Positions 36,341 to 40,043 of a DNA stretch of 64,000 bases are shown here, piece after piece (the stretch's first letter is position 1; every line of letters starts with the position of its first letter). This stretch comes from Actinomycetales bacterium (GTDB lineage: Bacteria; Actinomycetota; Actinomycetes; Actinomycetales; Microbacteriaceae): the NCBI GenBank assembly GCA_015654475.1, contig JAATGV010000017.1:1-64000 (forward strand), given 5' to 3'. The notes beneath the pieces are model-generated. The model had not been told where the DNA came from. It saw nothing but the letters and a program-made list of their open reading frames with translations, and did not search any database. The position numbers were made by a program, and so were the translations under genes.

Positions 36341-37351
<1,011 letters not shown>

Positions 37352-37452: not shown

Positions 37453-39615
37453 CTACAGCATGCAGCTGACGCAGCCCTCGACCTCGGTACCCTCGAGCGC
37501 GAGCTGGCGCAGGCGAATGTAGTACACCGTCTTGATACCTTTGCGCCACGCGTAGATCTGCGCCTTGTTGATGTCGCGGGTTGTGGCCGTGTCCATGAAG
37601 AACAAGGTCAGCGACAAGCCCTGATCGACATGCTGGGTTGCCTCAGCATAAGTGTCGATGATCTTCTCCGGCCCGATTTCGTAGGCGTCTTGGAAGTATT
37701 CGAGATTGTCGTTGTCGAGGAACGGCGCCGGGTAGTAGACGCGGCCGAGCTTGCCCTCTTTGCGAATCTCGATCTTTGAGGCGACCGGGTGGATCGATTA
37801 AGTCGAGTTGTTGATGTAGGAAATCGACCCGGTTGGTGGCACAGCCTGCAGGTTCTGGTTGTAGATGCCGTGCTTTTGGACCAGCGCCTTGAGCTCGACC
37901 CAGTCTTCCTGGGTAGGGATGTGAATGTTGCTTGAGGCAAACAGCTCTTTGACCTTATCGGTCTTCGGCTGCCAGGCCTTCTCAACATACTTGTCGAAGA
38001 ACTCACCGGTGGCGTATTTGGAATCTTCGAAACCGGCAAATGCCTCGCCGCGCTCTTGTGCAATCAAGTTGGATGCACGCAGGCAGTGGTAGAGCACCGA
38101 ATAGAAGTAGATGTTGGTGAAGTCGAGGCCCTCTTCTGAACCGTAGTAGACGTGCTCGCGCGCCAGGTAGCCGTGCAGGTTCATCTGGCCGAGGCCGATG
38201 GCGTGCGACATGTCGTTGCCTCGGGCGATGGATGGCACCGAGTTGATGTGGCTCATGTTCGAGACCGCGGTGAGGCCGCGAATCGCCGTCTCGATGGTCT
38301 TGCCGAAATCGGGCGAGTCCATGGTCAACGCGATGTTGAGTGAGCCGAGGTTGCAGGAGATGTCTTTGCCGATGCTCTCGTAGCCGAGGTCGTCGTTGTA
38401 GATTGACGGCTCGCTGACCTGCAAAATCTCGGAGCACAGGTTCGACATCGTGATCTTGCCCTTGATGGGGTTGGCACGGTTCACGGTGTCTTCGAACACA
38501 ATGTACGGGTAGCCGGATTCGAACTGGATCTCGGCGATGGTCTGGAAAAATTCGCGCGCGCTGATCTTGGACTTCTTGATACGAGCGTCGTCGACCATTT
38601 CGTAATACTTTTCGGAAACGTTCACGTCGCTGAACGGAATACCGTACACACGCTCAACGTCGTAAGGGCTGAACAGGTACATATCTTCGTTGTTCTTGGC
38701 CAGTTCGAACGTGATGTCTGGCACGACGACACCGAGGGAAAGCGTCTTGATACGGATCTTTTCGTCAGCATTTTCACGCTTGGTGTCGAGGAACCGGTAG
38801 ATGTCTGGATGATGCGCGTGCAGGTACACGGCACCGGCACCCTGCCATGCGCCGAGTTGGTTGGCGTAGCTGAAGGAGTCTTCAAGCAGCTTCATCACAG
38901 GAATAACCCCGGATGACTGGTTCTCGATCTTCTTGATGGGAGCGCCATACTCGCGCAGGTTCGTGAGGTTGAGAGCGACACCGCCGCCGCGCTTCGAGAG
39001 CTGCAATGACGAGTTGATGCCGCGAGCGATCGACTCCATGTTGTCTTCGATGCGAAGCAGGAAACAGGAAACGAGTTCGCCGCGCTGGGCTTTGCCGGAG
39101 TTGAGGAATGTTGGCGTTGCCGGCTGGAACCGCCCGTTGACCATCTCGTCAACGAGCTCGGTAGCAAGCGTCTCATCGCCATTTGCGAGGGTGAGCGCCA
39201 CCATCACGACACGATCTTCGTAGCGTTCGAGGTAACGCTTGCCGTCGAATGTTTTGAGCGCGTACGAGGTGTAGAACTTGAACGCACCGAGGAAGGTCTG
39301 GAAGCGGAACTTGTAGCTGTATGCACGCTTCTCGAGCTGTGCGATGAAATCGCGCGAGTACTGATCGATGACCGCCGCCTCGTAGTACTCGTTGTCGATC
39401 AGAAACTTCAGACGCTCATCCAGGTCGTGGAAAAACACGGTGTTCTGGTTGACGTGCTGAAGAAAGTACTGCCGAGCCGCTTCGCGATCCTTGTCGAACT
39501 GGATCTTGCCGTCCGGACCATACAGGTTGAGCATGGCGTTCAGCGCGTGGTAGTCCTGTTCGGCGATCAAGCTCCGTGACTCTGTGCGGTCGACGTCTAT
39601 GGTTGCTGTGCCCAA
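37453..39615 (-). pseudogene. nrdE: Class Ib ribonucleotide reductase alpha subunit NrdE, interrupted by an in-frame TAA
   Basis: The full frame encodes 720 residues of the catalytic subunit that reduces NDPs. Active-site cysteines are seen in GELVSCFLL and NLCSEIL, and the specificity region is normal. After [12 protein letters not shown] a TAA (37798-37800) stands where the conserved Ser of the SYINNSTSSIHP segment is expected; the same frame then continues [23 protein letters not shown] up to CVSCML and TAG at 37453. The lost 115 residues hold the radical-transfer tyrosine pair ([10 protein letters not shown]) and the C-terminal CVSC thiols reduced by NrdH, so the 605-residue truncated form should be inactive. 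TCA to TAA is a single change. The start is TTG at 39615 with GGAGG upstream. A sequencing error, stop suppression, or another reductase elsewhere are the options. Confidence 0.92.
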
Positions 39616-39797
39616 AACCCCTCCAACCCTTCTGTTGTGACGATTCTGAGGTCGTCAGTTGTTCTCATAAGTTCACATGTATGTTTGGCGCTGACGTCGT
39701 GTGCCGAGGCCAGCAAAGTTGCCCTCTGAACGCGCCCTAATTGCCTATACGAATCGTCGGGTGTGTTACCAGAGGTGCGGGAAGTGCACCGGGCCGG

Positions 39798-40043
39798 TCA
39801 TGCTACAGGTGCTGCAACCCTTGCGACCAGTTCGGTGATCTTGTCTGGACGGAATCCCGACCAGTGACCCTCGTCTGTGACAACGACTGGTGCCTGCAGG
39901 TAGCCGAGACCTTTGACTGCCTCAAGCGCTGCTGCGTCCTGGGTGATATCAACAACGTCGTAGTCGATACCAGCCTTGTCGAGCGCCCGATAGGTCGCAT
40001 TGCATTGCACGCAGGCCGGCTTGGAGTAGACAGTGATCGTCAT
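39798..40043 (-). CDS. nrdH: Glutaredoxin-like electron donor NrdH
   Basis: The 81-residue thioredoxin-fold protein reduces the class Ib reductase. The redox motif CVQC is at the end of the first strand (ITVYSKPACVQCNATYRAL), and the C-terminal WSGFRPDKITEL matches NrdH. ATG at 40043 has AAAGG/GGAAG upstream; earlier residues of the open frame overlap the NrdR sites. It is the promoter-proximal gene of nrdHEF; 182 bases separate it from nrdE, too small to hold nrdI. Confidence 0.94.
   Translation of the reverse strand: MTITVYSKPACVQCNATYRALDKAGIDYDVVDITQDAAALEAVKGLGYLQAPVVVTDEGHWSGFRPDKITELVARVAAPVA

Follow-up and report, generated by a model that had tools for sequence, protein, structure and literature searches.

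A single in-frame TAA in an otherwise intact nrdE of a Microbacteriaceae draft genome, probably one of several scattered base-level defects of the assembly

We analysed a class Ib ribonucleotide reductase locus in a 64,000-nucleotide stretch (hereafter the window) of contig C30 of an Actinomycetales draft assembly of the family Microbacteriaceae (GCA_015654475.1; 2.41 Mb, 42 contigs, 98.3% complete; here G000). It is the sole representative of its genus in the set of genomes searched. The locus carries the following features, by position in the window:

36341 to 37321, minus strand: nrdF, intact, 326 aa
37453 to 39615, minus strand: nrdE frame, catalytic subunit of class Ib ribonucleotide reductase, 720 positions including the internal TAA, plus the terminal stop
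37453 to 37797, minus strand: conserved 3' part of nrdE beyond the TAA, 114 codons plus the stop
37798 to 37800 (plus-strand numbering), minus strand: internal TAA, codon 606 of 720, where 124 relative loci have Ser (122) or Ala (2)
38845 to 38847, minus strand: nrdE codon 257, TGG (Trp), where every other aligned NrdE row with a letter there has Arg
39616 to 39800, minus strand: nrdH-nrdE gap, 185 bp, without the nrdI that relatives carry here
39801 to 40043, minus strand: nrdH, an intact glutaredoxin-like protein

The whole of 37453 to 39615 is a single NrdE frame of 721 codons, open throughout apart from the TAA at codon 606 and the terminal stop. Translated through the TAA, it scores 1253.3 bits against the TIGR04170 (class Ib NrdE) cut-off of 750, matches positions 1-698 of the 698-position profile, and aligns to NrdE proteins of known structure (1pem, 9l6o) on both sides of the TAA. 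It is thus a full-length match to the family whose frame is nevertheless interrupted, much as a first-pass annotation of this DNA had described it: intact save for one in-frame TAA and conserved beyond it to a CVSC tail. Because 114 conserved codons continue past the TAA, chance alone does not account for the open frame. The locus resembles known class Ib NrdHIEF systems (TIGR04170; 1pem, 9l6o) in sequence, length, CVSC tail and the neighbouring nrdH and nrdF, but differs in the TAA, in lacking nrdI at the locus, and in having Trp for an invariant Arg.

The proposal that relatives have Ser opposite the TAA held on re-alignment, in which near-duplicates were kept (122/124), and again after near-duplicates and short rows were dropped (91 Ser and 2 Ala in 93 rows). 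None of the 124 re-aligned relative nrdE loci has a stop at this site, and no internal stop in NrdE was found outside the window among the matches listed (~150 places, 299 family genomes). The codons opposite the TAA in the 124 stop-free matches (duplicates kept) are TCG (55), TCC (29), AGC (28), TCT (4), TCA (3), AGT (3) and GCG (2), and TCA accounts for 10% of the Ser codons in this genome's long ORFs. The suggested one-base origin, TCA to TAA, is uncertain; the change may have taken one step or two. The companion claim, that a truncated NrdE could not work, is right in so far as a 605-residue product would lose the C-terminal part of the protein.

In none of the 121 other sources in which nrdH was found (duplicates kept) is nrdH as close to nrdE as in the window, and the gap leaves no room for nrdI. 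A divergent, stand-alone nrdI lies instead on contig C11 (L184:9493-9933), adjoining a transketolase-like gene; tblastn with its product gave no match in the window and matched 120 of the 124 relative loci, although two of the four loci missed (L005, L020) do carry nrdI. This absence from the nrdHEF locus fits either relocation of nrdI or early decay of the class Ib system. Some relatives (G014, G024, G041) have two nrdI matches. In a relative, G003, a second nrdE copy on contig C3 (L185:8135-8512, minus strand) is followed by an early-ending nrdF frame; we rejected this stand-alone C-terminal NrdE fragment as a parallel case, as the copy is cut by the contig end.

A functional substitute elsewhere in the genome, in the form of nrdJ, nrdA or a second nrdE, had been named as something to look for. 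A PF02867 search of the genome returned only this nrdE, and with a protein search added no second class I or II catalytic subunit (nrdE, nrdA, nrdJ) was found in the assembly. The PF02867 search is imperfect, having given no match in a Corynebacterium glutamicum control, which we take to carry nrdE; the protein search did find the NrdJ-type genes of relatives. A class III reductase, on the other hand, is intact on contig C22: nrdD (L132:1333-3321) has no internal stops and is followed downstream by an nrdG2-type activase gene (L132:3639-4472), with both the NrdD and NrdG2 models above cut-off. The gene nrdD is rare in the family (8/299 genomes), and we found no literature on nrdD in Microbacteriaceae. 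The claim that nrdE is essential therefore stands in part: no second class I or II subunit turned up, but with class III present the gene could be dispensable under anoxia.

The emphasis of the first-pass annotation on nrdE alone proved too narrow, since the same type of lesion recurs in unrelated genes of the assembly. We scanned 1.54 of the 2.41 Mb, the window among them, for stops with coding signal in the same frame on either side; this left 29 final candidates, of which 24 were checked against family models, the other five being L191:12376, L331:9340, L201:14738, L207:367 and L200:8868. Besides nrdE, four conserved genes each match a family model that runs on across a single nonsense codon:

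L258:15829-15831, minus strand: TAG in sufB; Tyr in 23 of 23 relative loci
L218:13821-13823, minus strand: TAG in dnaX; 15 Glu, 3 Asp, 3 Gly and 1 Ser in 22 relative loci (23 available)
L199:14892-14894, plus strand: TAG in pntA; the E. coli PntA residue aligned there is Glu
L216:16484-16486, plus strand: TAG in ppk1, where relatives vary; 16 Ala, 4 Ser, 4 Glu, 3 Gly, 1 Phe and 1 Lys in 29 loci

At the sufB, dnaX and ppk1 sites no re-aligned relative has a stop (0/23 for sufB, 0/22 for dnaX and 0/29 for ppk1). A first search had reported stops in 11 other genomes for their best dnaX match and in 5 for ppk1 matches; in the re-alignment, which took in those of these genomes with an extracted locus, 4 of 22 dnaX loci (query positions 27-57) and 1 of 29 ppk1 loci (position 48) had stops, in every case ahead of the gene start. 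Other candidates were set aside as gene borders rather than nonsense codons, with domains that end before the stop and restart after it (e.g. L208, L201, L217, L213, L261, L194, L258:12890 and L206:7708), or were left out of the count because a domain lay on only one side of the stop (L193, L206:14080, L215, L330 and L209). Five frames with six stops (L192, L200:8553, L267, L331:3634 and L338) had no Pfam match.

We reasoned that, with the same lesion in four other conserved genes, the nrdE stop is most likely a scattered base-level error. We put a probability of roughly 70% on this reading, in which the TAA is one of several scattered single-base substitution defects of the draft assembly and reflects no biological feature of NrdE. 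Such defects may have arisen by base-calling or consensus error, or through a minority-strain base entering the consensus, and the living organism would most likely have a sense codon at the site and make full-length NrdE. SufB and DnaX are essential, and an organism lacking working NrdE, SufB and DnaX together would hardly be viable; it is from this joint loss that we infer a cause in the sequence data for stops that are themselves plainly present in the assembly.

The kinds of stop accord with this reading. Random single substitutions in these genes are expected to give 53% TAG, 25% TAA and 22% TGA, and the observed 4 TAG, 1 TAA and 0 TGA, nrdE included, fit random substitution (chance of zero TGA, 0.30); the residues lost at the five stops also differ from one another, as random hits would give. 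No convincing frameshift emerged from the 12 inspected of 45 candidates (1.19 Mb), which looked like antisense shadows, gene borders or low-complexity ends, and this suits substitution-dominated read errors. A control scan of 400 kb of a relative, G141, gave 92 candidates, and among the 17 checked (those least antisense-like; 10 with any Pfam domain, 7 without) no domain spanned a stop; the control is weak, because at the G000 rate a stretch of this length should yield only ~1.3 cases and the check covered 17 of the 92 candidates. A pattern search of viral contigs yielded no independent copy of the stop region.

Some observations count against error. The first stage of the scan catches ~28% of planted stops, so that the five seen point to ~18 in the scanned 1.54 Mb, even before allowing for those lost at the Pfam step; as 3% of substitutions are nonsense, the sample would hold several hundred substitutions, a high number for a modern assembly. 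Moreover, there is no clear surplus of changes at columns that are otherwise invariant in NrdE (1, R257W; relatives' mean 0.41), NrdF (1, P287A; 0.27) or SufB (1 besides the stop, H332Y, vs. a relatives' mean of 1.43). Among the 30 PPK rows, G000 ranks first in such changes (7 vs. a maximum of 5 in the others), and is also the row most distant from its nearest neighbour (69.1% identity).

It is also conceivable, but in our judgement unlikely, that the nrdE nonsense codon is real and tolerated, with NrdD and NrdG supplying deoxynucleotides under anoxia while the class Ib system decays, the operon nrdI having been lost as well. The absence of nrdI from the locus, with the tightest nrdH-nrdE spacing seen, is the best support for a real stop, and the intact nrdD and activase genes, in a family where nrdD is so rare, together with the Trp at an otherwise invariant Arg, point the same way. 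According to a review (PMC4009431), however, class III enzymes work only anaerobically, so that loss of NrdE could be survived only in an anoxic life, whereas the COX1 oxidase gene of this genome is intact and aerobic growth is likely. Furthermore, five of the seven other nrdD-positive genomes (G001, G144, G158, G261 and G301) have a stop-free nrdE, nrdF and nrdH are intact here, a divergent nrdI persists elsewhere in the genome, and a class III bypass would leave the sufB and dnaX stops unexplained.

We consider it quite improbable that the stops are real and read through, near-cognate or suppressor tRNAs decoding UAG and UAA often enough to give working protein at lower levels. That the lesion is common to several genes held essential would agree with such decoding, as would the lack of TGA among the five stops, which an ochre-type suppressor would give, and one study (PMC7918605) reports widespread in-frame stops under purifying selection in bacteria. 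The suppressor tRNA that the first-pass annotation had proposed seeking did not appear: there is no UUA or CUA anticodon among the 45 tRNA genes found, although this set is incomplete, lacking the tRNA-Glu that we did not find anywhere in the assembly. Both RF-1-family factors are intact, and of 840 long ORFs 273 end in TAG and 166 in TAA; TAG and TAA are thus ordinary terminators in this genome, and we rejected a change of genetic code. Nor are back-up stops in frame within the following 8 codons more frequent after TAG overall, with position +5 alone raised (6.6%). Tolerance of ordinary UAG and UAA inside several essential genes through leaky termination, with no dedicated suppressor tRNA or altered release factor, seems to us very improbable.

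Among the RNA genes, those for tRNA-Asp and tRNA-Phe sit where contig C26 ends (L254), and tRNA-Glu may be lost in a gap. An odd 85-nt tRNA-like gene on contig C17 (L147:93-177, minus strand), called tRNA-Gly(gcc), has a GC-rich palindrome in its anticodon arm. No 16S or 23S rRNA core turned up when the 1.54 Mb sample was searched by motif.

That NrdE is made as two assembling pieces, as reported for the class II enzyme of Pseudomonas aeruginosa, which is split (PMC4009431), is highly implausible: both pieces are conserved, but the earliest in-frame ATG, GTG or TTG past the TAA is the 61st codon, so re-initiation would cost conserved residues, and no re-aligned relative has the stop.

Base-level error in the assembly, the reading that we prefer, has a parallel in the interrupted coding sequences of Mycobacterium smegmatis, where genes likewise seem broken in the deposited genome and 28 of 73 resequenced cases were sequencing errors (PMC1852416). 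The cases differ in that none of those 28 errors was a miscall, owing to the detection program, as that paper reports, whereas all five here are substitutions to stop. The nrdE frame also resembles the prokaryotic in-frame stops of PMC7918605, where readthrough is proposed as frequent in bacteria, in that one stop interrupts a frame conserved along the rest of its length. That study kept only stops common to at least two genomes, however, whereas the nrdE stop occurs in one genome only and in none of the 124 relative loci, none of which is of the same genus.

If the stops are errors, this assembly is unfit for inferring gene loss and the nrdE case falls away. If they are real, a bacterium living with stops in three genes held essential would be a strong natural case of readthrough.
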